Below are positions 26,609 to 41,575 of a stretch of DNA of 64,000 nucleotides, piece after piece. This DNA is from Limnohabitans sp. Hippo3. GTDB taxonomy: Bacteria > Pseudomonadota > Gammaproteobacteria > Burkholderiales > Burkholderiaceae_C. The DNA is taken from positions 1 through 64,000 of the forward strand of contig NZ_NESF01000005.1 in NCBI RefSeq assembly GCF_003063665.1. Direction: 5' to 3'. Below the pieces are notes generated by a model. It ran no database searches. It saw nothing but the letters and a program-made list of their open reading frames with translations, and was not told the origin of the DNA. Position 1 is the first letter of the stretch. Each line of letters starts with the position of its first letter. A program made the position numbers and the translations under genes.

Positions 26609-27493
26609 ATGAACCCTTCAGACGCTTTGACCGCCCGACCCGAGGTGCGTGGTTTTTTTGACCCCGGCACCTGGACGGTGACGTATGTGGTCCATGCCCC
26701 GCAGGGCAGGGCGTGCGCCGTCATCGACTCGGTGCTGGACTACGACCCCAAGTCAGGGCGCACGAGCACGGCTTCGGCCGACAAGGTGATCGACTACGTG
26801 CGCAGCCAGGGTTTGCAGGTGGCCTGGATTCTGGAAACCCACGCCCACGCAGACCACCTGAGCGCAGCGCCCTACCTGAAAGCGCAGCTGGGCGGCCAAA
26901 CCGCCATTGGGGCCCACATCTCGGCTGTGCAAAAAGTTTTCAAGGGCGTTTTCAACCTGGAGCCCGACTTTGCGGTGGACGGCCGCCAGTTTGACCGTTT
27001 GCTGGCCGACGGCGAGAGCTTGCCCGTGGGGAGCTTGCAGATACAGGCCATGTCAGTGCCTGGGCACACACCGGCTTGCATGGCCTACCAGGTGGGCGAC
27101 GCCGTGTTCGTCGGCGACACCCTGTTCATGCCCGATGTGGGGTCGGCGCGTTGTGATTTCCCGGGGGGTGATGCGCGGGCCTTGTACACGTCGGTGCAAA
27201 AAATCCTGAGTCTGCCGCCGCAAACCCGCCTGTTCATGTGCCACGATTACCCGCCCGAGGGGCGGGCCGTGCAGTACGAAACCACGGTGGCGGCGCAGCG
27301 TGCGGGCAACATCCACCTGAAAGACGGCACCAGCGAAGCCGACTTTGTGCGCATGCGCACCGCCCGGGATGCCACCTTGGCCATGCCGGTTTTGATCCTG
27401 CCTGCGGTGCAGGTCAACATCCGTGCGGGCGAGATGCCCCCGGCCGAGACCAATGGCGTGGCCTATTTGAAGATACCCCTGAACGCCCTGTGA
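26609..27493 (+). CDS. Metallo-beta-lactamase-fold protein, persulfide dioxygenase-like
   Basis: The 294-residue protein has the metal motif HAHADH at residues 78-83, VPGHTPACMAY, FVGDTLF and MCHDYPPEG, matching the ETHE1/Blh branch of glyoxalase-II-like enzymes. These iron enzymes oxidise glutathione persulfide to sulfite, or act with BigR-type regulators in sulfide detoxification. The next gene is an ArsR regulator, followed by sulfide dehydrogenase and SoxYZ-like genes, which supports a role in sulfur oxidation. Biochemical activity is inferred. Confidence 0.82.
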   Translation: MNPSDALTARPEVRGFFDPGTWTVTYVVHAPQGRACAVIDSVLDYDPKSGRTSTASADKVIDYVRSQGLQVAWILETHAHADHLSAAPYLKAQLGGQTAIGAHISAVQKVFKGVFNLEPDFAVDGRQFDRLLADGESLPVGSLQIQAMSVPGHTPACMAYQVGDAVFVGDTLFMPDVGSARCDFPGGDARALYTSVQKILSLPPQTRLFMCHDYPPEGRAVQYETTVAAQRAGNIHLKDGTSEADFVRMRTARDATLAMPVLILPAVQVNIRAGEMPPAETNGVAYLKIPLNAL

Positions 27494-27572
27494 GCTTTCT
27501 TCAATCCCGGTGAGCGCATGGCCCTTGTGGGAGGGGGCAGGCTCCCCATCGGCGTCATATCTTCATTTGTGC

Positions 27573-27600
27573 ATAAGCAAACAACAAATGATTGGTTTGA
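27573..27600. promoter_or_regulatory. Candidate operator, site 1 of a repeated 28-base sequence
   Basis: The block starts ATAAGCAAACAACAAATGAT and ends TGGTTTGA. It recurs at 38669-38696 with a single base change (C for the first G after ATGATT). CAAAC (27578-27582) and GTTTG (27595-27599) form inverted arms; a wider pair, CATTTGT (27564-27570) and ACAAATG (27584-27590), overlaps it. It lies 78 bases upstream of the ArsR gene that heads the sulfide operon. Confidence 0.6.
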
Positions 27601-27677
27601 AATGGCCACAAACCCCGCCAGAATGCGAAGCTTCCACATTTGAGCACCCGATCCGGGTCCAGGTCGAGCAAAAAACC

Positions 27678-28010
27678 ATGGTCGCAAACCCCGCCCCCCG
27701 CACAGGCCCTGCCCTGGCCGAATCCGATGCGGTCTTTGAAAAGGCCGCCGAGGTGTTTCGTGTCATGTCGGCGCCCATGCGGCTGCGCATCATCAGCGCT
27801 TTGTGCGACGGTGAAAAAAACGTGGGGCAATTGCTGGCCGAGATTGCCACCACCCAGCCCAACATGTCGCAGCACCTGAACACGCTGTTTGTGGCGGGTG
27901 TGCTGGGCAAACGGCGTGAGGGGGTGCAGATTTATTACCGCATCGCCAATGAACAGGTGGTCGCTTTGTGCCGGACCATGTGCTCACAGCTCACTGCGGC
28001 ATTGCATTGA
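27678..28010 (+). CDS. ArsR-family transcriptional regulator of the sulfide/Sox operon
   Basis: The 110-residue winged-helix protein has the DNA-recognition helix TQPNMSQHLNTL and wing REGVQIYYRI. Cysteines C43, C98 and C102 are present; the last two lie in ALCRTMC, a spacing also found in the second ArsR of this island. Thiol-based ArsR sensors (SqrR, BigR, SoxR types) repress sulfide and thiosulfate oxidation genes until persulfide reacts with their cysteines. The cysteine positions here do not match BigR exactly. It leads an operon with the next three genes, and the repeated 28-base site lies upstream. Confidence 0.88.
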   Translation: MVANPAPRTGPALAESDAVFEKAAEVFRVMSAPMRLRIISALCDGEKNVGQLLAEIATTQPNMSQHLNTLFVAGVLGKRREGVQIYYRIANEQVVALCRTMCSQLTAALH

Positions 28011-28054
28011 CACGACAATCCCCCCCCCATTGGGACCATTCCGAAGGAAAAACC

Positions 28055-28366
28055 ATGAAGATTCACCACTTTTTTCTGGCATCGGCCGTCTGGATGGCCG
28101 CAGCTGCGTCGCAGGCGCAGTCTGCCGATGCTGCCCAGGTGCGCAGTTGGGCGGCCTCTTGCGCCGCTTGCCACGGCACCGATGGCCATGCCCAACCCGG
28201 CATGGCCGCTTTGGCCGGTGTGCCCAAGGACTTGATCGTGCAGAAAATGCTCGACTACAAGGCCGGCCGCGTGCCCACCGCCACCCTCATGCACCAACTG
28301 GCCAAGGGCTACTCTGACGAGCAGATCAGCGCCATCGCGGGGTATTTTGCCGCGCAAAAGAAATAA
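28055..28366 (+). CDS. Monoheme cytochrome c, flavocytochrome c (FccA/SoxE-like) subunit
   Basis: The start at 28055, with GAAGGAAAA upstream, gives a 103-residue protein. It has a cleavable signal (MKIHHFFLASAVWMAAAASQ, then AQ) and one heme motif CAACH. The distal methionine is probably in the ATLMHQLAKGYSDEQI region. Directly followed by the flavoprotein gene, it should be the electron-accepting subunit of sulfide dehydrogenase in the periplasm. A run of nine C residues at 28020-28028 lies just upstream. Confidence 0.88.
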   Translation: MKIHHFFLASAVWMAAAASQAQSADAAQVRSWAASCAACHGTDGHAQPGMAALAGVPKDLIVQKMLDYKAGRVPTATLMHQLAKGYSDEQISAIAGYFAAQKK

Positions 28367-28378
28367 GGACACATCGCC

Positions 28379-29653
28379 ATGCAACGTCGTCAATTTTTGC
28401 AGACCGGTTCTGCGCTGGGGGCCATGGGCCTGGTGTCGGGTTGTGCCACCGTGGGGGGTGATAGCGGCCCCAAGGTGGTGGTGATCGGGGGCGGTTACGC
28501 GGGGGCCACGGCCGCCAAGTACATCCGCATGTGGTCCGGACAGAAAATCCAGGTTACCTTGGTCGAGCCCAATGAGGTCTTTGTGTCCTGCCCCATCTCC
28601 AACCTGGTGATCGGCGGCAGCAAGACCATGGCCGACATCACCACGCCCTACGACAACCTGACCAAGCGCCACGGCGTGCAGATCGTCAAGGACCGGGTCA
28701 ACAGCATCGATGCCGACAAGCGCATTGTCAAGCTGGCTGGTGGTGCCGAGTTGACCTATGACCGCCTGATCGTCTCGCCCGGCGTGGACTTCATGTGGGA
28801 AGCGCTGCCCGGCATGAACAAGCCTGGCGCCAAAGACAAGGTCATGCACGCCTGGAAAGCGGGTGCTCAGACCCTCACGCTGCGCAAGCAACTCGAAGCC
28901 ATGCCCGATGGCGGCGTGTTCGCCATGGCGATCCCGCTGGCGCCTTACCGCTGCCCGCCCGGCCCTTACGAGCGGGCCTGCCAGGTGGCCGACTACTTCA
29001 GCAAAGCCAAGCCCAAGAGCAAGGTGCTGATTCTGGACGCCAACGACGACGTGACCTCCAAAGGGGCTTTGTTCAAGAAGGCCTGGGCCGAGCGCTACAA
29101 AGGCATCATCGACTACCGCAGCAAACACCAGCTGAGCGACGTCGATGTGGCAGCCAACACCTTGAAGTTCGAGTTCAACGACGACGTCAAGGCCAATGTG
29201 CTCAACGTCATCCCGGGCATGCGTGCCGGTGACATCGCGGTCAACGCGGGTCTTGCCACGGCCAACAAGCGCTGGTGCGAGGTGGACTTCTTGACCTTCG
29301 AATCCAAGGTCGCCAAAAACGTGCACGTGCTGGGCGACTCGATCCAGATTGCACCGGGCATGCCCAAGTCGGGCCACATGGCCAACCAGCACGGCAAGAC
29401 CTGTGCGGCGGCCGTGGTGGCCTTGCTCACCGACCAGCCGGTGAACACCCTGCCGATCTACAACAACACCTGCTACAGCTTTGTTAGTGCTGAAGAGGTG
29501 GTGCATGTGGCCAGCGTGCACCGTTACGACGCCGCGCAAAAAACCATGCTCACCGTGCCTGGCTCGGGCGGTTTGTCGAGCGCGGCCAATGCCGTCGAAG
29601 GTCACTACGCACTGGCCTGGGCGCGCAACATCTGGGCTGACACCCTGGCCTGA
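28379..29653 (+). CDS. Sulfide dehydrogenase flavoprotein subunit (FccB/SoxF-like)
   Basis: The 424-residue FAD enzyme oxidises sulfide to sulfur and passes electrons to the cytochrome subunit. It has the nucleotide fold VVVIGGGYAGATAA and three cysteines matching known FccB positions. C71 (VSCPISNLVIGG) corresponds to the covalent FAD attachment site; C192 (YRCPPGPYERAC) and C365 (NTCYSFV) correspond to the redox disulfide. The N-terminus combines a twin-arginine signal (RRQFLQTG) with a lipobox-like VSGC at 19-22, so it may be a Tat-exported lipoprotein. Confidence 0.92.
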   Translation: MQRRQFLQTGSALGAMGLVSGCATVGGDSGPKVVVIGGGYAGATAAKYIRMWSGQKIQVTLVEPNEVFVSCPISNLVIGGSKTMADITTPYDNLTKRHGVQIVKDRVNSIDADKRIVKLAGGAELTYDRLIVSPGVDFMWEALPGMNKPGAKDKVMHAWKAGAQTLTLRKQLEAMPDGGVFAMAIPLAPYRCPPGPYERACQVADYFSKAKPKSKVLILDANDDVTSKGALFKKAWAERYKGIIDYRSKHQLSDVDVAANTLKFEFNDDVKANVLNVIPGMRAGDIAVNAGLATANKRWCEVDFLTFESKVAKNVHVLGDSIQIAPGMPKSGHMANQHGKTCAAAVVALLTDQPVNTLPIYNNTCYSFVSAEEVVHVASVHRYDAAQKTMLTVPGSGGLSSAANAVEGHYALAWARNIWADTLA

Positions 29654-29658
29654 CCTGC

Positions 29659-30474
29659 ATGCCGATCCACCACACGCCCGGTCACACCCGCCGCCAGCTG
29701 CTGCAAGGCACTGCTGCAGCGGGCGTGTGCGCGTCGTTGGGGGCATGGCCCACTTTGGCCGTGGCGGCATCGCCCGCTTTCGAGGCCAAAACCTTGGCTC
29801 AGGTGGCCAAGGCCCTGGGGGCGAAATCGGTCATGGCCAGCGCCGATGTGCGCCTGAATACCCTGGATTACGCCGAAAACGGGGCGGCTGTGCCGGTGGA
29901 CATCGGCACATCTTTGCCGGGGGTCGAGCGCATCGCCCTGTTTGTCGAAAAGAACCCCACGCCGCTGATCGCTGTTTTCCAGTCCGGCGAATTGGTCGAC
30001 ACCGTCTTGACCGTGCACACCAAGATGGCCCAGACCTCGGCGGTGTACGCCCTGGTCATCCTGGCTGATGGCCGGGCCCTGTTTGCCAAAAAAGACGTCA
30101 AGGTGGTGCTGGGCAGCTGTGGGGCCGTGTCCGAGACCCCGGACAACGTGGATGCCAAACGCGCCACTGAGCCCACGCGCATCCGGGTGCAAATTCAGGG
30201 CGATTCAGCGCTTGTGCGCATGCGCATGGCCCACGAGATGGAGTCCGGCCAACGCAAGAACGCAGCGGGCAAACTGGTGCCTGCTTGGCATATCGACCAG
30301 GTGACCGTGCAGCTCAACGGCAAACCGGTCCTCACGGCCGACTGGGGCCCGGGTGTTTCGCGCAACCCCTATTTGCAATTCACCCTCAAAAAAGCCAAAG
30401 CGGGCGACAAGCTCACCGTCGGCTGGCGCGACAACAAAGGTGCTCTGCGTTCGGACGACCAGCTGCTGGTTTGA
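29659..30474 (+). CDS. SoxY-SoxZ fusion, sulfur carrier protein
   Basis: The 271-residue protein joins two domains normally made separately. Residues 1-37 form a Tat-type signal (TRRQLLQGTAAAG). Residues 40-156 are a SoxY domain ending in the carrier motif GSCGA, with Cys154 in the position of the SoxY swinging-arm cysteine (usually GGCGG at the very end). Residues 172-271 are a SoxZ domain (MAHEMESGQRKNAAGKLVPA, DWGPGVSRNPYLQF). It follows fccAB-like genes by five bases, without soxAX, soxB or soxCD in the window. A related fused SoxYZ-like family is known near quinoprotein dehydrogenases; none is seen here. Confidence 0.88.
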   Translation: MPIHHTPGHTRRQLLQGTAAAGVCASLGAWPTLAVAASPAFEAKTLAQVAKALGAKSVMASADVRLNTLDYAENGAAVPVDIGTSLPGVERIALFVEKNPTPLIAVFQSGELVDTVLTVHTKMAQTSAVYALVILADGRALFAKKDVKVVLGSCGAVSETPDNVDAKRATEPTRIRVQIQGDSALVRMRMAHEMESGQRKNAAGKLVPAWHIDQVTVQLNGKPVLTADWGPGVSRNPYLQFTLKKAKAGDKLTVGWRDNKGALRSDDQLLV

Positions 30475-30490
30475 TGCGTCTGGCTGCGCG

Positions 30491-30511
30491 CCAACCATGC
30501 GGTTGGTCTTT
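30491..30511 (+). terminator. Weak hairpin after the SoxYZ fusion gene
   Basis: CCAACC (30491-30496) and GGTTGG (30501-30506) form a six-base stem with the loop ATGC, followed by TCTTT. The stem and T run are short, so termination may be partial before the sulfate-binding protein gene. Confidence 0.4.
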
Positions 30512-30620
30512 ATAGATATTTACCGCATTAAGAAATAGAAAAACAGTCGTTTGAGTTTTAACGGATCACTTCCAGAATCCATGCCATCAGCTTTTTGATG
30601 TGTATTTTTGGAGTGACCTC

Positions 30621-31631
30621 ATGACAACCAAACGCCCTGTTCTCAAACTCTTCGCGCTGCTGACCTTGACCTTGTCGGGTTTGACTGTGCAAGCGCAAGC
30701 GCCCATCAGCCTGCTCAACGTGTCTTATGACCCCACACGTGAGCTGTACGTCGAATTCAACAAGGCCTTTGCCGCTCACTGGAAAGCCAAAATTGGCCAA
30801 GACGTGAGCTTCAAGCAGTCGCATGGCGGCTCGGGCAAACAAGCCCGCTCCATCATTGACGGCTTGGACGCCGACGTGGCCACCCTGGCCTTGGCCGGTG
30901 ACACCGACGCCCTGCACAAAAACGGCAACCTGATCCCCAAAGACTGGCAAAAGCGCTTGCCGCACAACAGCTCGCCCTACACCTCGACCATCGTGCTGGT
31001 GGTGCGTGCGGGCAACCCCAAAGGCATCCGCGACTGGGACGACCTGGTCAAGCCGGGCATCAGCGTGATCACACCCAACCCCAAAACATCGGGCGGGGCT
31101 CGCTGGAACTATTTGGCTGCCTGGGAATTTGCCAAGCGCAAATATGGCAATGAAGCCAAGGCCAAAGACTTTGTGACCGCGCTGTATAAAAACGTGCCCG
31201 TGCTCGACACCGGGGCGCGGGGCTCGTCCATCACCTTTGCGCAGCGTGCGCAGGGCGATGTGTTCATCAGCTGGGAAAACGAAGCCAACCTGCTGGAAAA
31301 GGAGTTTGGCAGCAAGATCGACGTGGTCTACCCGTCCATCAGCATCCTGGCCGAACCTGCGGTGACCGTGGTCGACAAAAACGTGGACCGCAAAGGCACC
31401 CGCGCAGTGGCGCAGGCTTATCTGGAATTTCTCTACACCGACGAAGGCCAAGACATCGCTGGCAAAAATTTCTACCGCCCGATCTCGCCCAAGGCCCAGG
31501 CCAAATACGCCAAGCAGTTCCCCAAGCTCAAGCTGTTCACCATCGACCAGGCCTTTGGTGGCTGGGAAAAAGCCGACAAAGCCCACTTTGCCGACGGCGG
31601 CACTTTCGATCAGATTTACAGCAAGAAGTGA
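30621..31631 (+). CDS. Periplasmic sulfate-binding protein (first copy)
   Basis: The start at 30621, with GGAGTGA nearby, gives 336 residues with a signal peptide ending VQAQA. Family segments [40 protein letters not shown] and [17 protein letters not shown] match the Sbp/CysP proteins that bind sulfate or thiosulfate for CysTWA. It is alone between the sulfide operon and a terminator. The only permease genes in reach (39802-41549) lie behind a second paralogue, so the two binding proteins may share one transporter with different ligands. Confidence 0.92.
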
Positions 31632-31672
31632 ACGTGTGTCAGACCGTCCAGCACCGTCTTGACGGTTGACCC

Positions 31673-31707
31673 AAGCCCGCAGGTGTTCGCGCCTTGCGGG
31701 CTTTTTT
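31673..31707 (+). terminator. Intrinsic terminator after the first sulfate-binding protein
   Basis: AAGCCCGCA (31673-31681) pairs with TGCGGGCTT (31695-31703), and the T run continues to 31707. It closes the sulfide/sulfate-binding transcription block before the convergent ArsR gene. Confidence 0.75.
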
Positions 31708-31825
31708 CAGGGGCTTCGGCATCAGCGGTGACCGCTCACCCCAGCGGCATACCGGAAAGCCCACCACAGCCGCCAGGTGAGGCGCCGCACCGACGCCGCA
31801 GCGCGGGGCACTTAGCCTTTCAGGG

Positions 31826-32200
31826 TCAGGACAGCGATGTGAACGCAGCACGCCGTCCGGCCGACTTTTCCATTTGGCGGGCGATGTTGCCGCAGACCAG
31901 GTCGCACAGCGCAAAGATCGAAGGATCGGCGATGCGGTAGTAGGCGCTGGTGCCGCGGCTTTCGCGCTCGACCAGGCCTTGTTGGGTCATCAAGGCCAGG
32001 TGGCGTGAAACGTTGGCGGCGGTGAAGCCACACATCTGGGCCAGCTCGCCCACATTGCGCTCACCCGAGCGCAGGATGTTGAGGATTTGCAAGCGCGTGG
32101 GCTCGGCCAGCACCTGGAAGTAGGCCGCAACTTCCACCAACGCGCCTTCTGGCAACTGTTCCATGGGGGTGCACTCCTGAGGTTGGGGGGATTGTTTCAT
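31826..32200 (-). CDS. ArsR-family transcriptional regulator divergent from the RND operon
   Basis: The 124-residue winged-helix protein has EPTRLQILNILRSGERNVGELA, recognition helix AANVSRHLALM and wing RESRGTSAYYRI. Cysteines are C10, C57, C99 and C103; the last two lie in ALCDLVC, the same ALC-x3-C pattern as the sulfide-operon ArsR. An internal ATG at 32164 would remove the first twelve residues, including C10. Placed back to back with the efflux operon across a 93-base gap, it probably controls both. The gap contains a degenerate copy of the repeated operator. Confidence 0.88.
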   Translation of the reverse strand: MKQSPQPQECTPMEQLPEGALVEVAAYFQVLAEPTRLQILNILRSGERNVGELAQMCGFTAANVSRHLALMTQQGLVERESRGTSAYYRIADPSIFALCDLVCGNIARQMEKSAGRRAAFTSLS

Positions 32201-32235
32201 GGGTGGATGGACCGTGTTGTATTTTTTATTGTATC

Positions 32236-32280
32236 ATTGCAAAATCAAGCAATCAGTTAAATAAGCAAATAACAATCGAT
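32236..32280. promoter_or_regulatory. Candidate operator, degenerate site 3 between ArsR and RND genes
   Basis: ATAAGCAAATAACAATCGAT at 32261-32280 matches 17 of 20 bases of the first 20 bases of sites 1 and 2. Just before it, ATTGC (32236-32240) and GCAAT (32249-32253) form an inverted repeat with an eight-base spacer. Site 2 has GTTTGC-N8-GCAAAC at the same kind of position. Promoters for both divergent genes should fall in this AT-rich 93-base gap. Confidence 0.5.
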
Positions 32281-32293
32281 AAAGGACCAACCC

Positions 32294-33364
32294 ATGCAAC
32301 GCTCCTCCCTGCTGACCTTGGCCATGGGTGTATCCCTTGTCACATCCTTCTGGGGGCAAAGCACGGCCATGGCCGCCGATGCGGCGTCCTTGAAGGTGAT
32401 CGCGGTGCAAAGCAGCGCCGCGGGTCAGGCCGACAGCAGCCTGGATGCCGTGGTCGAGGCGGTCCGCCAGACCACCTTGTCCACCCAGGTGGCCGGTGCG
32501 GTGGTGGCCTTGCGCGTCAAGGCGGGCGATCAGGTCAAGGCCGGGCAGGAGTTGCTGCGCATCGATGCGCGTGCCGCCCAGCAAGGCGTGGTGGGGTCCA
32601 CGGCCCAGGTTGAGGCGGCGCAGGCCCAACTGGCTGTGGCCAGCCAGGAACTGGCACGTCAAAAACAGCTGCTGCAAAAGCAGTACATCAGCCAGGCCGC
32701 TTTTGAGCGTGCACAAGCCCAGTGGGACGCGGCCAAGGCCCAGGTGAAAGCCTTGCAGGCCCAGACCCAGGCCGCACAAACGCAGTCGGGCTTTTTCATC
32801 GTCAACGCGCCCTATGCCGGTGTGGTGAGCGATGTGCAAGTTACTTTGGGTGACATGGCCATGCCGGGCCGAGCCTTGATCACCCTGCACGATCCGTCGG
32901 CTTTGCGCGTCACGGCGGCGGTGCCTCAGGCTATGCTGGCGTCGGTGGGTGCCCAGCCCAAGGCGGTCCGTTATGAACTGCCTGGTGTGGCGGGCCACAG
33001 CACGCCGCAAGTGCCGCAGCAGGTGCAGGTGCTGCCCTCAGTGGACCCGGTCACGCACACCGGTCAGGTCCGTCTGGGTTTGCCCGCTGGCATCGAGGGG
33101 CTGGCCCCGGGCATGTTTGCGCGGGTTTGGTTGCCAGGTGCTGTCAATGGCAAATCTCTGGCGCCGCGCCTGTATTTGCCCGCCAGCGCCATCGTGCGCC
33201 GGGCGGAGATGACGGGGGTCTACGTGATCAATGCCCAGGGACAGCCCAGCCTGCGCCAGGTGCGACTGGGCCAGACCTCGGGTGATCGGGTGGAGGTGCT
33301 CAGCGGCCTGCGTGCAGACGACAAAGTGGCTGCCGAGCCGCAGCTGGCGGCCGCGGTGCGCTGA
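32294..33364 (+). CDS. RND efflux system periplasmic adaptor (membrane fusion protein)
   Basis: The 356-residue protein has a signal peptide (cleavage near AMAADA) and a split biotinyl-lipoyl domain (VAGAVVALRVKAGDQVKAGQELLRID). A long helical hairpin of alternating Q/A residues (about 95-165), a beta-barrel and a C-terminal membrane-proximal domain follow. This is the layout of HlyD/AcrA-type adaptors. It starts the efflux operon and is followed by the pump after 12 bases. The substrate cannot be read from sequence. Confidence 0.9.
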   Translation: MQRSSLLTLAMGVSLVTSFWGQSTAMAADAASLKVIAVQSSAAGQADSSLDAVVEAVRQTTLSTQVAGAVVALRVKAGDQVKAGQELLRIDARAAQQGVVGSTAQVEAAQAQLAVASQELARQKQLLQKQYISQAAFERAQAQWDAAKAQVKALQAQTQAAQTQSGFFIVNAPYAGVVSDVQVTLGDMAMPGRALITLHDPSALRVTAAVPQAMLASVGAQPKAVRYELPGVAGHSTPQVPQQVQVLPSVDPVTHTGQVRLGLPAGIEGLAPGMFARVWLPGAVNGKSLAPRLYLPASAIVRRAEMTGVYVINAQGQPSLRQVRLGQTSGDRVEVLSGLRADDKVAAEPQLAAAVR

Positions 33365-33376
33365 AAGGGCCTGGAC

Positions 33377-36300
33377 ATGAACGGGCCCCACAACATGAAC
33401 ACCTCATTGAGCATTTCCGGCCGCATCGCAGCCCTGTTCCAGAGCGCGCAGATCACGCCGCTCTTGGCCCTGGTGGCTTTGCTGCTGGGCATTTTTGCGG
33501 TGATGGTCACACCGCGTGAAGAGGAACCCCAGATCAACGTGACCATGGCCAATGTGCTGGTGCCTTTCCCGGGTGCGGCCGTGCGCGATGTGGAACAGAT
33601 GGTGGCGGTGCCGGCCGAGCAGGTGCTCTCGCGCATCGTGGGCGTGGAGCACGTCATGTCGGTGTCGCGTCCGGGTGTGGCGGTGCTCACAGTGCAGTTC
33701 AAGGTGGGCGTGCCGCGCTCCGAAGCCCTGGTGCGTTTGCACGACACGATCCGCGACAACGCCGACTGGCTGCCCAAGGGCCTGGGTGTGATGGAGCCCT
33801 TGATCAAACCCAAAGGCGTGGATGATGTGCCCATCGTCACGCTGACCTTGTTCAGCAAGAGCGCCGACACCGGTGCCTACAGCCTGGAGCGCGTGGCGCA
33901 CAGCATGGAGGTCGACCTCAAGCGCGTCAAAGGCACGCAGGACGTGCAGACCCTCGGCGGCCCCGAGCGTGCCGTGCTGGTGCAGATCGAGCCCGAGCGC
34001 ATGGCCGGTTTTGGCATCACGGTGAGCGATCTGCGCATGGCCTTGCAGTCGGCCAACTCGGGGCTGCCCGTGGGCGAGCTGATCGCGGGCAACAAGAGCG
34101 TGAGCATCGAGGCGGGGCCTTTCCTGTCGCAAGTAAGCGATGTGGCCGATCTGGTGGTGGGTGTGCAGGGTGGCCGCCCCGTGTTCCTGAAAGACGTGGC
34201 CAAAGTGGAAGAAGGTCCCTTGCCCGCCACACGCTATGTGACGCATGGACTGGGTCAGGCTGCGGGTGGCGGCGAATACCCCGCTGTGACTTTGGCCATC
34301 ACCAAAAAACCGGGTGAAAACGCCATCGACGTGGCCAATGCGGTGATGGACCGTGTGGCTTCGTTGCGCGGCACGGTGATCCCGGCGGATGTGGAGGTGG
34401 CCGAGACGCGCAACTACGGCGCCACGGCCAATGACAAGGCGCAAAAGCTGATCCAGAAGCTGCTGTTTGCTACCGCCTCGGTGGTGGCGCTGGTGTTCAT
34501 TGCGCTGGGCAAGCGCGAGGCGGCGATCGTGGGCACGGCCGTCATCCTGACGCTCACGGTGACGCTGTTCGCCTCGTGGGCCTGGGGCTTCACGCTCAAC
34601 CGCGTGTCGCTGTTTGCGCTGATTTTTTCCATCGGTATTCTGGTGGATGATGCCATCGTGGTGGTGGAAAACATCCACCGCCACCAGCAGCTGTACCCGG
34701 GTAAGACATTGGCCGAGATCATCCCCGGTGCCGTGGATGAAGTGGGCGGTCCCACGATTTTGGCCACGCTCACCGTGATCGCCGCGCTCTTGCCCATGGC
34801 CTTTGTGAGCGGTTTGATGGGCCCGTACATGAGCCCGATCCCGATCAATGCCAGCATGGGCATGCTGCTGTCCTTGGTCATTGCCTTTGTCGTTACGCCC
34901 TGGCTGGCGCGCATCTGGATGAAGGCCTCGCACGCAGGGGATGCCCACGCCGCGCCGACGGGCCTAGCAGCGAAGCTGGGGCCGCTGTTTGAGCGCGTGT
35001 TCGCGCCCTTGCTGCACAACGAGCAAGGCGGGCGCAACCGAAAGCTGCTGGGCCTGGGCATTGCCGCGCTGATTGCGATTTCGCTGGTGCTGCCGGCCAC
35101 GGGTCTGGTGCTGCTCAAGATGCTGCCCTTCGACAACAAGTCGGAGTTTCAGGTGGTGGTGGACATGCCTGTGGGTACGCCGGTGGAAGAAACCGCCGCC
35201 GTCATGCGCGAGCTGGGTGCCTACTTGGCGCAGCAGCCCGAGGTCACCGATTACCAGGCTTACGCGGGCACCTCGTCGCCGATCAACTTCAATGGTCTGG
35301 TGCGCCAGTACTACCTGCGCTCAGGCGGCGAGGTGGGCGACATGCAGGTCAAGCTGGTGGACAAGAGTCAGCGCAAGGACCAGAGCCACGCGATCGCCAC
35401 GCGCCTGCGCCCGGCCTTGCAGGCCATCGGCCAGCGCCTGGGCGCTAACGTGAAAGTGGTCGAAATGCCCCCCGGCCCGCCCGTGCTGGCCCCCATCGTG
35501 GCCGAAATCTACGGCCCTGACGCCGAAGGCCGTCGCACGGTGGCCAAGGCGGTGCGCACCATCTTCGAAAAGACCGACAACGTGGTGGATGTGGACGATA
35601 GCAGCATTGCCGCCGCTCCCCGCCAACTGCTGCTGGTTGACCGCCGCAAGGCCGCGGCTCTGGGCATCCCACAGCAAGCCATCGTGACCACCTTGCGTGC
35701 GGGCCTGGCCGGAGAGGCTGCGACCTACCTGCATGACGGCAGCAAATACCCCGCTGCGGCCTTGATCCAGTTGCCCGCCGAGCGGCATGGCGACTTGTCG
35801 GCCTTGCTGCAGCTGACGGTGCGCGGCGCATCGGGCAAGCTGGTGCCGATCCGCGAGCTGGTCACCGTGACCGACAGCGAGCGCGAGCAACCCGTGATCC
35901 ACAAAGACCTGCTGCCTGTGAACTTTGTCACTGCCGACATGGCCGGAAAACTGGACAGTCCGCTGTACGGCATGTTCCAGATGCGCAGCGCCATTCAAAA
36001 AATTCAGACGCCCGATGGCCAGGCGCTGACCGAGTACTTCATCAATCAGCCGTCCGACGCCTGGCGCGGCTACGCCCTCAAGTGGGACGGCGAGTGGCAG
36101 ATCACCTACGAGACTTTCCGCGACATGGGCGCGGCCTATGCGGTGGGCCTGGTGCTGATCTATCTGCTGGTGGTGGCGCAGTTTGGCTCTTACCTCACGC
36201 CGCTGATCATCATGGCGCCGATTCCGCTGACCATCATCGGTGTCATGCCCGGGCACGCGCTGCTGCAGTCGCAATACACCGCCACCAGCATGATCGGCAT

Positions 36301-36607
36301 GATCGCGCTGGCCGGCATCATCGTGCGCAACTCCATCTTGCTGGTGGACTTCATCCACCTGCAGGTCAAAGAGGGCGTGCCTTTCAAGCAGGCCATCGTA
36401 CAGTCGGCCATCACCCGTGCCCAGCCCATCATGCTCACGGGCGGTGCGGCCATGCTGGGCGCTTTCTTCATCCTGGACGACCCGATCTTCAACGGTCTGG
36501 CCATCTCGCTGATCTTCGGCATCTTTGTCTCGACCGTCCTCACGCTGGTCGTGATCCCCACGCTCTACTACGCGGCCTACCGCCGTCAGTACGAGAGCAC
36601 CCCTTGA
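33377..36607 (+). CDS. RND-family efflux pump, inner-membrane permease
   Basis: The 1076-residue protein has the RND layout of twelve membrane helices with two large periplasmic loops. The proton-relay aspartates are present in helix four (GILVDDAIVVVENIHRH). A second start at 33395 (MNTSLSISGRIAALFQ) is possible and closer to the first helix. It resembles the hydrophobe/amphiphile pumps more than the metal (CzcA) branch, although the distinction is tentative. With the adaptor upstream and a TolC-like gene downstream it forms a tripartite exporter. Confidence 0.9.
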   Translation: MNGPHNMNTSLSISGRIAALFQSAQITPLLALVALLLGIFAVMVTPREEEPQINVTMANVLVPFPGAAVRDVEQMVAVPAEQVLSRIVGVEHVMSVSRPGVAVLTVQFKVGVPRSEALVRLHDTIRDNADWLPKGLGVMEPLIKPKGVDDVPIVTLTLFSKSADTGAYSLERVAHSMEVDLKRVKGTQDVQTLGGPERAVLVQIEPERMAGFGITVSDLRMALQSANSGLPVGELIAGNKSVSIEAGPFLSQVSDVADLVVGVQGGRPVFLKDVAKVEEGPLPATRYVTHGLGQAAGGGEYPAVTLAITKKPGENAIDVANAVMDRVASLRGTVIPADVEVAETRNYGATANDKAQKLIQKLLFATASVVALVFIALGKREAAIVGTAVILTLTVTLFASWAWGFTLNRVSLFALIFSIGILVDDAIVVVENIHRHQQLYPGKTLAEIIPGAVDEVGGPTILATLTVIAALLPMAFVSGLMGPYMSPIPINASMGMLLSLVIAFVVTPWLARIWMKASHAGDAHAAPTGLAAKLGPLFERVFAPLLHNEQGGRNRKLLGLGIAALIAISLVLPATGLVLLKMLPFDNKSEFQVVVDMPVGTPVEETAAVMRELGAYLAQQPEVTDYQAYAGTSSPINFNGLVRQYYLRSGGEVGDMQVKLVDKSQRKDQSHAIATRLRPALQAIGQRLGANVKVVEMPPGPPVLAPIVAEIYGPDAEGRRTVAKAVRTIFEKTDNVVDVDDSSIAAAPRQLLLVDRRKAAALGIPQQAIVTTLRAGLAGEAATYLHDGSKYPAAALIQLPAERHGDLSALLQLTVRGASGKLVPIRELVTVTDSEREQPVIHKDLLPVNFVTADMAGKLDSPLYGMFQMRSAIQKIQTPDGQALTEYFINQPSDAWRGYALKWDGEWQITYETFRDMGAAYAVGLVLIYLLVVAQFGSYLTPLIIMAPIPLTIIGVMPGHALLQSQYTATSMIGMIALAGIIVRNSILLVDFIHLQVKEGVPFKQAIVQSAITRAQPIMLTGGAAMLGAFFILDDPIFNGLAISLIFGIFVSTVLTLVVIPTLYYAAYRRQYESTP

Positions 36608-36634
36608 GTTTCGTCAACCCTTAGGAGAACTTCC

Positions 36635-36844
36635 ATGAAATCCTGGCAAATCGTCCGCCTCGTCGCAGGCACCTTCATCCTCTTGTCGCTGGCCTTGGGC
36701 ATCGAAGGCAGCCCCATCTTTGTGAGCCCTTGGTGGCTGGCATTCACCGCCTTTGTGGGGTCCAACCTGTTGCAAAGCGCGCTGACGAAGTGGTGCCTGA
36801 TGGAATCCATTCTGCGTAAATTCGGCGTACAACCTGGCTGCTGA
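36635..36844 (+). CDS. DUF2892 small membrane protein
   Basis: The 69-residue protein has two hydrophobic helices (IVRLVAGTFILLSLALGI and WWLAFTAFVGSNLLQSAL). It ends WCLMESILRKFGVQPGC, matching DUF2892. Such domains are attached to or neighbour rhodanese and sulfide-detoxification proteins in many bacteria. Its place inside an RND operon in a sulfur island is therefore suggestive. Two cysteines (C54 and C69) sit in the C-terminal part. Confidence 0.8.
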   Translation: MKSWQIVRLVAGTFILLSLALGIEGSPIFVSPWWLAFTAFVGSNLLQSALTKWCLMESILRKFGVQPGC

Positions 36845-36872
36845 TCTGCCTTCAGCCCAAGCGGAGAATCAC

Positions 36873-38243
36873 ATGAACCCACGCACGCTGCTGGCGGGGG
36901 CTGTGCTGGCGCTGGGCGCCACAGCCACCCCGGCCACCGACCTGTTGCAAGTCTGGCAGGCTGCTCGCCAGCATGACCCGCAAGGCGCGGTCAGTGAAGC
37001 GGGTCGTGCGGCCGGCGCGACACGGCGCGAACAAGCGGCTGCTTTGTGGCGGCCCAACCTGGGTTTGAGCGCCAGCGCGGGCTGGGCCAACGGACAGAGC
37101 CAGATGAATGGGGCGCAGTTTTCTGCGCTCAATTCAGGCCTGTCTGACCAAGCCAATTTCAGCACCTCGATCAACGGCGGAACCGCCACCCGCTGGGCCC
37201 TGAATGCCAGACAGCCGCTGTACAACCCGGAGCGCCGAGCCCAAGCGGCCCAGCTGCAAGTGGCCGCACAGGCCAGCGAGCATGAGTGGCAGCTGAACCA
37301 ACAGGACTGGATGCTGCAGATCACACAGCGTTACATGGATGTGGTGCAGGCCGAACGCCGACTCGCGCTGGTGCTGCAACAACAGCAGGCGGTGAACCAG
37401 GCCCTGACCGAGGCGAAAGACCGCTTTGCCTTGGGTGATGCGCCGATCACCGACACCCACGAAGCTCAGGCGCGTGCGCAGGCTTTGGCGGCCGAGGCCA
37501 TTGCCGCCCGCAATGCGCTGGACATGGCGCGGCAGGTGCTGGCCGATGTGACCGGTTGGGCTGCCGAGAACTTGCAATTGCAAGCCCCGGTTCGCGTGGT
37601 CACGGGGCAGGTCATCGAGCCCTTGGCCACCTGGCTGCAGCGTGCCGAGCACCATAGCCCGGTGCTCAAGCTGCAACAAGCCCAGGCTCAATCGGCGCAG
37701 CAGGACATCGACAAATACCGCGCATCGGCCTCGCCCACGCTGGACCTGGTGGCACAAGCCTCGCGTGAGCGGCTCGGTGGTTCGGGCGACTTCGGCGCAG
37801 CCAGCAACACGCAAAGTCAGCAGATGGTGGGTTTGATGCTGAATCTGCCGCTCTACACCGGTGGCTGGCGCAGCGCCAAGCTGCAAGAGGCCGTGCACCT
37901 GCACGACAAAGCCCGTGCCGAGCTCGAGCGCAGTCGCCAGCAGGTGGCCCAGATGACCCGAGCCGCTTGGCAAGCGGTGCAAAGCGGTCAGGCGCGTCTG
38001 GCCGCGCTCGATGCAGCCCGCACGGCCAGCCAGGCGCGGCTGGACGCGACCCGGCTGGGCCGTCAGGTGGGTGACCGCACCACGCTGGATCTGCTCAACG
38101 CACAAACCGACGCCAGCGCCGCCGAGCTGGCCTGGCTGCAAGGGCAGATCGACACCTTGATGGCGCAGCTGCGTCTGCATGCCATGGCCGGGCAACTCGA
38201 TGTGCCGCAGCTGCAGGCGGTCAACGCGGCCTTGCAGCCCTGA
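36873..38243 (+). CDS. TolC-family outer-membrane efflux protein
   Basis: The 456-residue protein has a signal peptide (MNPRTLLAGAVLALGATATP) and the two repeated helical hairpins of TolC. Recognisable pieces are WALNARQPLYNPERRAQAAQ and MLNLPLYTGGWRSAKLQEAV, which mark the outer-membrane beta strands, and GDRTTLDLLNAQTD near the end. It completes the adaptor-pump-TolC set. The product should form the outer-membrane duct. Confidence 0.9.
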   Translation: MNPRTLLAGAVLALGATATPATDLLQVWQAARQHDPQGAVSEAGRAAGATRREQAAALWRPNLGLSASAGWANGQSQMNGAQFSALNSGLSDQANFSTSINGGTATRWALNARQPLYNPERRAQAAQLQVAAQASEHEWQLNQQDWMLQITQRYMDVVQAERRLALVLQQQQAVNQALTEAKDRFALGDAPITDTHEAQARAQALAAEAIAARNALDMARQVLADVTGWAAENLQLQAPVRVVTGQVIEPLATWLQRAEHHSPVLKLQQAQAQSAQQDIDKYRASASPTLDLVAQASRERLGGSGDFGAASNTQSQQMVGLMLNLPLYTGGWRSAKLQEAVHLHDKARAELERSRQQVAQMTRAAWQAVQSGQARLAALDAARTASQARLDATRLGRQVGDRTTLDLLNAQTDASAAELAWLQGQIDTLMAQLRLHAMAGQLDVPQLQAVNAALQP

Positions 38244-38275
38244 AAATGGGCGCTGTCATTTGGAGAGCAACACAC

Positions 38276-38629
38276 ATGAGCACCTTTGATCACCCCGCAT
38301 TGATCCAGAACATCAGCCAGGCCATGGGTGGCTTGCGCAAGGCGCAGCCCGAGGCGATGCAGGGCTTTGGCCAGCTGGCCAAGTCGGCCATGGCCGAAGG
38401 CGCCATCAGCGAAAAACACAAGGAACTGATGGCCCTGGCGATCGGCATCACCCAGCATTGCTCAGGCTGCATCGGCTTCCATGTCAAGGCTTTGCGCCGT
38501 CTGGGCTGCACACGCCAGGAGCTGGAAGAAATGCTGGCGGTGTGCGTCTACATGGGCGGTGGCCCTGCGCTGATGTACGCGTCCGAGGCCTGGGCGGCCT
38601 GGGATGCATTTGCGCCTGCGCAGGCCTGA
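38276..38629 (+). CDS. AhpD-like carboxymuconolactone decarboxylase-family protein
   Basis: The start at 38276 (MSTFDHPALIQNI) gives 117 residues. The redox motif C62-SG-C65 with H69 in QHCSGCIGFHV matches AhpD-type peroxidase/thiol-disulfide proteins of the carboxymuconolactone decarboxylase superfamily. It is 32 bases after the TolC-like gene and probably the last gene of the efflux operon. A thiol-redox protein fits the sulfur theme of the region, but its substrate is unknown. Confidence 0.87.
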   Translation: MSTFDHPALIQNISQAMGGLRKAQPEAMQGFGQLAKSAMAEGAISEKHKELMALAIGITQHCSGCIGFHVKALRRLGCTRQELEEMLAVCVYMGGGPALMYASEAWAAWDAFAPAQA

Positions 38630-38658
38630 GCCTGAGCTACAGGTGTTTGCCTTTATCT

Positions 38659-38696
38659 GTTTGCAGATATAAGCAAACAACAAATGATTCGTTTGA
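38659..38696. promoter_or_regulatory. Candidate operator, site 2 of the repeated 28-base sequence
   Basis: Bases 38669-38696 match 27 of 28 bases of the sequence at 27573-27600. An inverted repeat GTTTGC (38659-38664) / GCAAAC (38673-38678) with an eight-base spacer overlaps its start, and CAAAC / GTTTG arms (38674-38678, 38691-38695) span it. It lies about 104 bases upstream of the second sulfate-binding protein gene, where a promoter for sbp-cysTWA is expected. Confidence 0.6.
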
Positions 38697-38799
38697 GAAA
38701 GCAGTGGCTGCGCCCACAATCGCAGCCATGACTGGATACGTGCCGATCGTTGCGATGGGCGCGTTCAACAGCCCCTCTGTTTCCCAAATCGAATCCCCC

Positions 38800-39792
38800 A
38801 TGAAAAAACACACCCTCATCGCCTTGGCCGCCACGCTGGCTTTGTCCGGTCTGTCGGCCAGCGCCCAGACCTTGCTCAACGCTTCCTACGACGTGGCCCG
38901 CGAGTTCTACAAGGACTACAACGCCGCTTTTGTGGCGCATTACAAAAAGACCACCGGCAAGGACGTGAAGATCGACCAGGCCCACGGTGGCTCCAGCGCC
39001 CAGGCGCGTGCCGTCAACGACGGCCTGGACGCCGATGTGGTGACCATGAACACCACCACCGATGTGGACTTTCTGGCCAGCACCGGTGTGGTGGCCAAGG
39101 ACTGGACCAAGCGCTTTCCCCACAGCGCGTCGCCCACCACCTCCACCATGCTGTTCCTCACACGCAACGGCAACCCCAAAGGCATCAAGGACTGGGACGA
39201 TCTGGTCAAGCCCGGCATCAAGGTGATCGTGGTCAACCCCAAAACCGGTGGCAATGGCCGCATGGCTTATCTGGCCGCCTGGGGCTATGTGAAGAAGAAG
39301 GGCGGCTCGGACGCCGAGGCGGCTGACTTTGTGAGCAAGCTTTACAAAAACGTGCCGGTGCTGGCCAAGGGCGGGCGCGATGCGACCACCATCTTCCTGC
39401 AGCGCAACATCGGTGATGTGCTGGTGACGTTCGAGTCCGAAGTCGTGTCGGTGGACCGCGAGTTTGGCGAAGGCAAAGTGGATGCGATCCACCCGTCCAT
39501 CAGCATCGTGGCCGAGAACCCGGTCGCCGTGGTCGAGCGCACCGTGGCCAAGAAGGGCACAGGCACCCTGGCCAAGGAGTACCTGGACTACCTGTATTCC
39601 GAAGAAGCGCAGGAGATCGCGGCCAAGCACGCACTGCGCCCGCGTTCGCCAACCGTGCTCAAAAAATACAGCAAGACCTTCAAGCCTTTGCAGTTGTTCA
39701 CCGTGAACGAAGTGTTTGGCTCGCTGGCCGATGCCCAGAAGGTGCACTTCAACGACGGCGGTCAGTTCGACAAGATCTACACCGTCAAATAA
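38800..39792 (+). CDS. sbp: Periplasmic sulfate-binding protein of the cysTWA operon (second copy)
   Basis: The 330-residue protein has a clear signal (MKKHTLIALAATLALSGLSA, then SAQ). It shares the segments [36 protein letters not shown] and NPKTGGNGRMAYLAAWGY with the copy at 30621. No good ribosome site precedes the ATG at 38800; an ATG at 38728 would add a non-signal extension and is less likely. Ten bases separate it from cysT, so this copy is the dedicated binding protein of the ABC importer. Confidence 0.93.
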   Translation: MKKHTLIALAATLALSGLSASAQTLLNASYDVAREFYKDYNAAFVAHYKKTTGKDVKIDQAHGGSSAQARAVNDGLDADVVTMNTTTDVDFLASTGVVAKDWTKRFPHSASPTTSTMLFLTRNGNPKGIKDWDDLVKPGIKVIVVNPKTGGNGRMAYLAAWGYVKKKGGSDAEAADFVSKLYKNVPVLAKGGRDATTIFLQRNIGDVLVTFESEVVSVDREFGEGKVDAIHPSISIVAENPVAVVERTVAKKGTGTLAKEYLDYLYSEEAQEIAAKHALRPRSPTVLKKYSKTFKPLQLFTVNEVFGSLADAQKVHFNDGGQFDKIYTVK

Positions 39793-39801
39793 GTTTCCCC
39801 C

Positions 39802-40665
39802 ATGAGTGCTTTGTCCATCGCGGCACCCGCCCCACGGCGGGCGCCAGCCAAGGTGTTGCCCGGGTTCAACCTGACCCTGGGCTTCACCCTCTTTTACCTC
39901 TGCCTGATCGTGCTGATCCCTTTGTCGGCGCTGGTGTTCAAAACCTTCACCTTGACCTGGGACCAGTTCTGGGCGGCTGTCACAGGCCCCCGGGTCATGG
40001 CGTCTTACCGGCTGACCTTTGGGGCGTCATTGATTGCGGCCTTGGTCAATGTGGTGTTTGGTTTGCTGGTGGCCTGGGTGCTGGTGCGCTATGACTTTTT
40101 TGGCAAAAAGGTGGTCGATGCGCTGGTCGATTTGCCCTTTGCCTTGCCCACGGCGGTGGCGGGCATTTCGCTCACCGCGCTGCTGGCGGGCAATGGCTGG
40201 ATCGGCCAATACCTGGAGCCGCTGGGTGTTGAGCTCGCCTTCAACCCCAATGGCGTGGTGATCGCACTGATCTTCATCGGCTTGCCCTTTGTGGTGCGCA
40301 CGGTGCAGCCGGTGCTGGAAGACACCGAAAAAGAACTCGAAGAAGCCGCGACCTGCTTGGGCGCAACCCGCTGGCAGACTTTCTCGCGGGTGATTTTTCC
40401 GTCGATTGCGCCTGCATTGCTCACGGGTTTTGCCATGGCGTTTGCCCGCGCCATCGGCGAATACGGCTCGGTCATTTTCATCGCGGGCAACATGCCCATG
40501 GTGTCCGAGATCACGCCGCTCATCATCATCGGCAAGCTCGAGCAATACGACTATGCCGGTGCCACCGCCGTGGCCTTGGTCATGCTGATCTTTTCGTTTG
40601 TCTTGCTGCTGGTGATCAACGCCTTGCAGACCTGGCAGCGCCGCCGTTCGGGAGTGTCCTCATGA
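39802..40665 (+). CDS. cysT: Sulfate/thiosulfate ABC transporter permease CysT
   Basis: The 287-residue inner-membrane protein has about six helices and the EAA loop [20 protein letters not shown] that contacts the ATPase. CysT pairs with CysW to form the sulfate channel. The N-terminus has a short basic alanine/proline-rich extension. Its stop overlaps the cysW start (ATGA), so translation is coupled. Confidence 0.95.
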
Positions 40666-41549
40666 GCCAGACCCTTACTTCCAACAAGGTGCAGGCGGGC
40701 ACCACCGAGGCCCGCTGGATCCGTTACAGCCTGATCGGCACCGCGCTGGTTTTCATGTTCCTCTTCCTGGTCTTGCCTTTGGCGGCGGTGTTCACCGAAG
40801 CCTTGCGCAAAGGGCTGGACGCCTACCTGGAAGCGCTCAAGGAGCCAGACGCCTGGTCAGCGATTCGCTTGACGCTGATCACCGCCGCGGTGGCGGTGCC
40901 GCTCAATCTGGTGTTTGGCGTGGCCGCAGCCTGGGCGATTGCCAAGTACGAGTTCAAGGGCAAATCGCTTTTGACCACGCTGGTCGATTTGCCGTTTTCG
41001 GTGTCGCCCGTGGTGGCGGGTTTGATTTACGTGCTGATGTTCGGCGCACAGGGCTGGTTTGGCCCCTGGCTGCTGGCCCACGACATCAAGATCGTGTTTG
41101 CGGTCCCAGGCATCATTTTGGCAACGGTGTTTGTCACATTCCCGTTCATCGCCCGTGAGCTGATCCCGCTCATGCAAGCACAGGGCAGCGATGAAGAGCA
41201 GGCGGCCATTGTGCTGGGCGCTACCGGCTGGCAGACCTTCTGGCGTGTCACTTTGCCCAACATCAAATGGGGGCTGCTGTATGGCGTGATCTTGTGCAAC
41301 GCCCGCGCCATGGGCGAGTTCGGCGCGGTGTCGGTGGTGTCCGGTCACATCCGGGGCCAGACCAACACCATGCCGCTGCATGTGGAAATTTTGTACAACG
41401 AATACCAGTCGGTAGCGGCGTTTGCTGTGGCCTCGCTGCTGGCCTTGCTGGCGCTGGTGACTTTGGCCATCAAGTCGGTCATCGAATGGCGCCACGCGCA
41501 AGAGCTCAAGGCCGCTGCCGACACGCCGCCCGAGCGGCCCATCGCCTGA
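40662..41549 (+). CDS. cysW: Sulfate/thiosulfate ABC transporter permease CysW
   Basis: The 295-residue permease has about six helices and the coupling loop [20 protein letters not shown]. The conserved [21 protein letters not shown] segment is distinctive for CysW. It overlaps cysT by four bases and precedes cysA by 26 bases. Confidence 0.95.
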
Positions 41550-41575
41550 AACCTCCATCGACAACGGTTGAAAAC

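Follow-up and report, generated by a model that had tools for sequence, protein, structure and literature searches.

The window analysed here, a stretch of 64,000 nucleotides of Limnohabitans sp. Hippo3 (GCF_003063665.1, contig NZ_NESF01000005.1, positions 1–64,000), carries a 28-base sequence before two operons of sulfur metabolism, where bases 27573–27600 and 38669–38696 are identical at 27 of 28 positions. The first copy lies between a metallo-beta-lactamase gene and the gene of the ArsR-family repressor ArsR1, which heads an operon with a cytochrome c, flavocytochrome c sulfide dehydrogenase (FCSD) and SoxYZ, and the second between an AhpD-like gene and sbp2 of the sulfate uptake operon sbp2-cysT-cysW-cysA. 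A partial copy at 32261–32280 matches a 20-mer of the repeat at 17 positions (3 mismatches) and is found between the divergent ArsR2 gene and the membrane-fusion gene of an RND operon, 13 bases before the ATG of the latter. A preliminary description of this DNA had reported the three copies and their intergenic settings, and recounting the bases and inspecting the gene neighbours confirmed both; a diverged site before sbp1, with its core at 30527, had been overlooked. The same description took the repeat for the site of a dimeric ArsR repressor, which our results do not support. The repeat is the core, promoter-proximal part of a promoter element of fixed geometry, and with a probability of roughly 0.8 it belongs to a site at which the LysR-type regulator CysB activates transcription.

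Sites and genes of the window

Sites were scored with a position weight matrix (PWM) trained on 27 gapless aligned sites of the sbp2 and ArsR1 classes only, so named after the gene that follows, with the sbp1 and cysI sites outside the training set. They were also scored with R1, a sequence-only model of 76 positions whose rows include the ArsR1, sbp1 and sbp2 sites of the window and the cysI site of the same genome. The sbp1 site has a PWM score of 18.0 against −3.3 for the next non-site in the window. The features of the element are as follows.

27556–27599, forward strand: site 1, before the ArsR1-cytochrome c-FCSD-SoxYZ operon, a predicted site for activation by CysB; core ATA at 27573, GTTTG at 27595–27599
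27555–27624, forward strand: R1 match at site 1 (E 1.4e-14 in the window; a row in the model)
27619–27624, forward strand: −10-like CAGAAT of site 1, at the fixed 19 bases from GTTTG
30508–30553, forward strand: diverged site before sbp1; core at 30527, GTTTG at 30549–30553
30508–30580, forward strand: R1 match at the sbp1 site (E 7e-10; a row in the model)
30573–30578, forward strand: −10-like CAGAAT of the sbp1 promoter, at the 19-base distance
38652–38695, forward strand: site 3, before the sbp2-cysT-cysW-cysA operon, a predicted site for activation by CysB; core ATA at 38669, GTTTG at 38691–38695
38650–38723, forward strand: R1 match at site 3 (E 5e-14; a row in the model)
38715–38720, forward strand: −10-like CACAAT of the sbp2 promoter

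The genes around these sites are the following.

26609–27493, forward strand: metallo-beta-lactamase-fold protein, persulfide-dioxygenase-like, the upstream neighbour (PF00753; NF040641 408.9 bits, below the cut-off of 625)
27678–28010, forward strand: ArsR1, first gene of its operon (PF01022; NF033788 76.7, above the cut-off of 55; BigR model NF040642 61 bits, below the cut-off of 155)
28055–28366, forward strand: small cytochrome c (PF00034 23.4 bits, above the cut-off of 21.3)
28379–29653, forward strand: FCSD flavoprotein (PF21706, PF09242)
29659–30474, forward strand: SoxY-SoxZ fusion (PF13501, PF08770)
30621–31631, forward strand: sbp1, sulfate-binding protein (TIGR00971 458.1, above the cut-off of 155.5)
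38800–39792, forward strand: sbp2, sulfate-binding protein (TIGR00971 383.1, above the same cut-off)
39802–42670, forward strand: cysT, cysW and cysA of a sulfate ABC transporter (open frames, named from their order and mutual similarity)

Geometry of the element

The 20-mer was searched at up to 3 mismatches. The window has 3 matches where 0 are expected, and none of 100 dinucleotide shuffles reaches 3; the whole genome (2,990,681 bases in 31 contigs) has the same 3 matches and no others, with 0 for the reversed-pattern control. The repeat is therefore neither a chance occurrence nor a dispersed sequence, and the dozens of copies that would mark the latter are not seen. A gapless alignment of the sbp2 and ArsR1 classes shows that they have in common ATA, AAC, AA and GTTTG and a −10-like sequence 19 bases further on. 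The promoter reads ATA-N7-AAC-N-AA-N2-A-N-T-N-GTTTG, then 19 bases, then a −10-like NANANT, and the full element of about 45 bases begins with a TTAT-like box followed by the ATA...GTTTG core. The final alignment has 48 gapless rows (19 of the sbp2 class, 20 of the cysI class, 8 of the ArsR1 class and 1 sbp1), which were used in place of a MAFFT alignment of 8 longer stretches that came out gapped with one row shifted. GTTTG is exact in 42 of the 48 rows, the remaining six having mostly GTTGG, and NANANT stands at the fixed distance in 47 of 48, including all 20 cysI sites, and this −10-like sequence was not covered by the PWM that had located them. The GTTTG end of the element takes the position of the −35 box. 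This placement beside a predicted −35/−10 pair is that of an activator, which speaks against an ArsR operator.

The strict gapless pattern, ATA-N7-AAC-N-AA-N2-A-N-T-N-GTTTG-N19-NANANT, was found in 33 of the 40 genomes used for the genus-wide searches, at 46 places, with 0 of 40 for the reversed pattern. It is present in 16 of 20 sulfate-assimilation (cys) loci (that of Hippo3 and those of 19 congeners), as against 0 in 2,035,190 bases of Markov-resampled sequence. PWM scores are 41 to 61 for the training sites and −11.6 to 18 for the sites elsewhere.

Conservation and predicted targets

An initial survey with the 20-mer covered 60 genomes (Hippo3, 35 congeners and 24 from other families) and gave a match in 33, namely Hippo3, 26 of the congeners and 6 of the genomes of other families. 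Thirty loci were opened. In 25 congeners the match stands before sbp2-cysTWA (18) or before ArsR1-cytochrome c-FCSD (7), so that conservation upstream of orthologous operons, a check that had been proposed for this site, is found within the genus. In the 26th congener (L020) and in the three opened loci of other families (L030–L032) none of the genes of the window lies beside the match. In all 20 cys loci the best match of the PWM, too, lies upstream of tauE or cysI, at a distance of 28 to 161 bases; the scores there are low (−11.6 to 10.2), but the position is constant across the 20. The predicted targets in Hippo3 beyond the window include the tauE-cysI-cysH-cysD-cysN cluster. At locus L063 (around 6888) 7 bases separate the end of the −10-like sequence of tauE-cysI from the first ATG of tauE, and the message may therefore be leaderless.

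With R1 at E up to 0.1, matches were obtained in 39 of the 40 genus genomes. Hippo3 itself has five, before cysI (3.2e-13), ArsR1 (6.6e-13), sbp2 (2.3e-12), sbp1 (3.3e-8) and at C30:46072 (4.1e-5). The last is a new match outside the model and precedes a rhodanese/YeeE pair; a rhodanese gene follows the site in 9 of the 9 such loci opened, Hippo3 included. In the Hippo3 locus (L114, 3177–5214) a periplasmic-looking two-domain rhodanese and a YeeE-family transporter stand under the same promoter, and they could be a thiosulfate or sulfane-sulfur uptake pair.

A scan of 84,980 GTDB species returned at least 119 stretches with at least 120 places. Among the matches listed, 84 places are before tauE/cysI, 27 before sbp2 (in 5 cases an alpha/beta-hydrolase gene intervenes), 2 before ArsR1 and 7 are unassigned, which puts genes of sulfate uptake or reduction behind 111 of the 120. 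The records listed comprise 94 from Comamonadaceae, 3 from Burkholderiaceae, 18 with an unresolved label of Burkholderiales, Betaproteobacteria or Proteobacteria, and 4 others (Akkermansia, Singulisphaera, Lishizhenia and Peregrinibacteria). Of the latter, the Akkermansia and Singulisphaera records (L177, CALQKH020000009.1; L199, CALPYQ020000230.1) are probably mis-binned or mislabelled, since their sbp2 is 92% and 88% identical to that of the window, and the other two look like chance matches because no sulfur gene lies behind them. An order-wide R1 search with stricter filters gave matches in 7 of 200 genomes. Besides Hippo3, these are G132 and G172 with cysI or sbp2 downstream, G226 with an sbp1-like gene, and three with nothing recognised downstream.

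The copy at the RND operon

The third copy reported for the window was examined together with its neighbours.

31826–32200, reverse strand: ArsR2, divergent from the RND operon (PF01022; NF033788)
32229–32252, no strand assigned: block TTGTATCATT with a TTGC-N8-GCAA dyad (32237–32252), a candidate operator for ArsR2 at the RND operon; of 20 orthologous regions all have the block and 11 the dyad
32261–32280, forward strand: RND-operon copy, judged a non-member; GTTTG half and correctly spaced −10 both absent, membrane-fusion start codon 13 bases away
32294–33364, forward strand: RND membrane-fusion protein (PF16576)
33377–36607, forward strand: RND permease (NF033617 445.6, below the cut-off of 1250)

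The RND operon was rejected as a member of the regulon, the copy having neither the GTTTG half nor the promoter spacing. Its PWM score is −5.9; the weakest of the cysI sites fall below this value, but their geometry is complete. R1 aligns to it with E 0.93 over 17 of the 76 model positions. Among 20 orthologous ArsR2-RND intergenic regions (L134–L153, that of the window included), the 20-mer at up to 3 mismatches occurs in that of the window only, and AAC-N-AA-N6-GTTTG in none. TTGTAT[CT]ATT is present in all 20 of these regions, TTGC-N8-GCAA in 11 and ATAAGCAA in 13. The copy is a piece of the ArsR2 promoter, probably of its operator region. In several Limnohabitans the ArsR2-RND operon adjoins soxYZ or a metallo-beta-lactamase gene, and this hints at a sulfur-related substrate of the efflux system. 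The single regulon proposed earlier consequently stands in part: the sulfide-oxidation and sulfate-import operons are joined by a conserved site, but membership of efflux is not supported. The regulon probably covers sulfate assimilation besides sulfide oxidation and sulfate uptake, and leaves out efflux.

Site presence at the sulfide operon

The gene order ArsR1-(DsrE-like)-cytochrome c-FCSD recurs widely. We inspected 29 ArsR1-FCSD loci, of which 13 have the site by R1 or by the pattern, one (G030) by the PWM (16.3, with the correct spacing) and 15 do not have it (G028, for instance, has the site and G026 does not); four further genomes with ArsR1-like proteins lie outside this set of 29. 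On a tree of FCSD with 27 rows, in which the partial row of G002 was left out and G030 was counted as having the site though R1 did not report it, site presence changes at least 5 times, and the well-supported branches force 2 of the changes. The labels are clustered on this tree, as only 3 to 5 of 500 shuffles are as low. Within the genus the predicted control of sulfide oxidation by CysB is hence labile, unlike that of cysI, which is steady in the opened loci. In two of the ArsR1 promoters (L009 and L013) the spacer between −35 and −10 has palindromes, GCCAAAATTGGC and GCCAATATTGGC, with a perfect inverted repeat of 5 or 6 bases that is weaker in others and absent from the ArsR1 promoter of the window. 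The spacer palindrome is a candidate ArsR1 operator.

Identity of the regulator

The likely reader of the element is CysB and not the nearby ArsR proteins, since the element matches the switch before the sulfate-assimilation genes of related bacteria. The Hippo3 genome has one clear copy of the CysB family (G000:C1:467785–468699), which is 42% identical to E. coli CysB (E 9.6e-84, the next LysR protein being at 1.6e-23), scores 450.5 with NF009327 (cut-off 402) and has CysB as its best PDB matches. It may be noted that, in the excerpted text of PMC11329422, CysB binds upstream of −35 and its activation sites are centred 50–60 bp before the start site. The start predicted from the −10-like sequence lies, by our estimate, about 54 bases downstream of the centre of the element, a placement that would fit these sites.

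Several observations weigh against CysB as the reader or narrow the reach of the regulon. The CysB of Hippo3 stays below the cut-off of the CysB equivalog NF009326 (360 vs 436). A search of 54,004 bases from E. coli K-12, covering cysP, cysK, cysD, cysJ, sbp and cysB, gave no significant R1 match; the best E is 0.13 at a non-cys place, and the values of 1.1 to 5 near cysJ, sbp and cysB are at chance level. Identity with a proven CysB site is therefore unsupported by sequence, though the E. coli consensus is itself described as very weak in the same excerpt of PMC11329422. The R1 E-values of the three window sites and the cysI site are inflated because these rows built the model, and R1 matches outside Comamonadaceae are few and weak. 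With 15 of 29 loci lacking the site, sulfide oxidation is not tied to the element throughout even this one genus. Among the titles in the literature searched, which covers few subscription papers and is no proof of absence, none concerned CysB control of sulfide oxidation or a Comamonadaceae CysB motif.

That the repeat is an operator common to the sulfide, sulfate and efflux operons and bound by dimeric ArsR1 or ArsR2 had some appeal, as two of the three places adjoin ArsR genes, sites 1 and 3 have the arms CAAAC/GTTTG, and ArsR1, judging from its 61 bits with the BigR model, is related to sulfide-responsive repressors. We now consider it very improbable. The inverted arms are present as had been described, but are not common to the sites: CAAAC/GTTTG occurs in 17 of 48 (16 of 19 in the sbp2 class, 1 of 8 in the ArsR1 class, 0 of 20 in the cysI class and 0 of 1 for sbp1), TTGC-N8-GCAA occurs in 1 of 48 (sbp2 class), CAAAC is thus unconserved, and the conserved inverted repeat expected of an ArsR/SmtB operator was not found in the 48 sites. 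Sites of the same geometry stand before cysI in 20 of 20 loci, and in three of the 40 genomes (G001, G019 and G022) neither ArsR1 nor ArsR2 has a match, yet R1 still finds 2, 2 and 3 sites there, which in G001 and G022 are before sbp2 and cysI and in G019 before cysI. ArsR1 and ArsR2 therefore cannot be the general readers, and it is these genomes, together with the cysI sites, on which the ArsR operator was rejected. Further, R1 matches persist in 7 of the 8 genomes (among the 40) that lack an ArsR1 relative at 60% or more, and the site is missing from 15 of 29 ArsR1 loci; at L128 (G061:C50) a weak site (E 0.017) lies immediately upstream of a stand-alone soxYZ gene, with no intervening ArsR1, and the ArsR2 promoter has a conserved block of its own.

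A regulator of sulfur assimilation other than the CysB orthologue, be it another LysR protein or an unrelated activator, is a more serious competitor, though still an unlikely one. The identity of the binder is drawn from targets and geometry, and 14 proteins of the genome match E. coli CysB at E up to 0.001, so that other LysR proteins exist. However, the next best of them has only 30% identity over 257 residues, and the targets (sulfate uptake and cysI-H-D-N) are those of CysB in enterobacteria (PMC11329422, in excerpt). Least credible of all is a dispersed repeat, or a recent duplication that copied one promoter before the other operon. The 27 of 28 identity inside one genome could suggest it, and so could the ArsR1-class consensus of congeners, which differs from site 1 at 3 of 27 core positions. 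But the likeness stops at the motif, with no flanking homology seen beyond the element on comparing sites 1 and 3, while the fixed 19-base spacing and the −10 continue with different spacer letters and each copy recurs before the corresponding operon of congeners. A dispersed repeat is rejected, as there are three copies genome-wide.

Proposed regulation and relation to known systems

The sequence, geometry and conservation of the element and the genes beside it are observed here, whereas the identity of CysB as reader, activation by it, autorepression by ArsR1 and a sulfur-scavenging role of the operon are what we infer. Under a shortage of sulfur, inducer-loaded CysB would occupy the element and bring RNA polymerase to a promoter whose −35 is poor. 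It would thus turn on sulfate uptake (sbp1, sbp2-cysTWA), assimilation (tauE-cysI-cysH-cysD-cysN) and the rhodanese/YeeE pair. In this species, and at roughly half of the congener loci inspected, ArsR1-cytochrome c-FCSD-SoxYZ would be turned on as well. The near-identity of the two window sites would then arise because both are sites for one protein. ArsR repressors usually control their own operon, and a second input from ArsR1 is for this reason likely; ArsR1 would add a sulfide- or persulfide-dependent brake on its operon. The spacer palindrome of some congeners would fit such an input, but the window is without it.

The element resembles the enterobacterial CysB sites (cysJIH, cysK and cysP, as excerpted from PMC11329422) in its predicted position upstream of or at −35 and about 50–60 bases before the start, in being a long two-part site with sulfate uptake and reduction as targets, and in the single CysB-family regulator of the genome. 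It differs in a much stronger consensus, in that R1 does not score the E. coli cys promoters, and in targets that reach sulfide oxidation (FCSD, SoxYZ) in an operon headed by an ArsR gene. ArsR1 belongs to the same superfamily as BigR, SqrR and YgaV (PMC9774250, in excerpt) and heads a sulfide-oxidation operon, but the 28-base repeat is not tied to it, and the palindrome occurs in a few congeners and not in the window. As for the YeeE/TsuA/SoxT importers (excerpt of PMC11582611), a YeeE-family gene follows the rhodanese gene with the same promoter, but the YeeE of Hippo3 is far below the TsuA equivalog cut-offs (43.5 vs 400).

The element itself is of a known type and the interest lies in its wiring to sulfide oxidation. 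For Comamonadaceae it supplies a promoter code of sulfur assimilation that is strict and can be searched for, backed by four tests independent of the window, and it predicts that sulfur starvation and sulfide oxidation are linked in freshwater bacteria that are abundant. In enterobacteria sulfide and thiosulfate antagonise CysB, so that a starvation-driven activation of a sulfide-oxidising operon would be unexpected. Because the presence of the site is patchy, the genus is a natural experiment in promoter rewiring. We tentatively suggest, as a possibility that falls somewhat short of even odds, that part of Limnohabitans has wired a periplasmic sulfide-oxidation operon into its sulfur-starvation regulon, with CysB as the on-switch and ArsR1 holding the operon until sulfide or persulfide is present; the enzymes may then serve scavenging more than energy, and the wiring may have been gained or lost several times in the genus.

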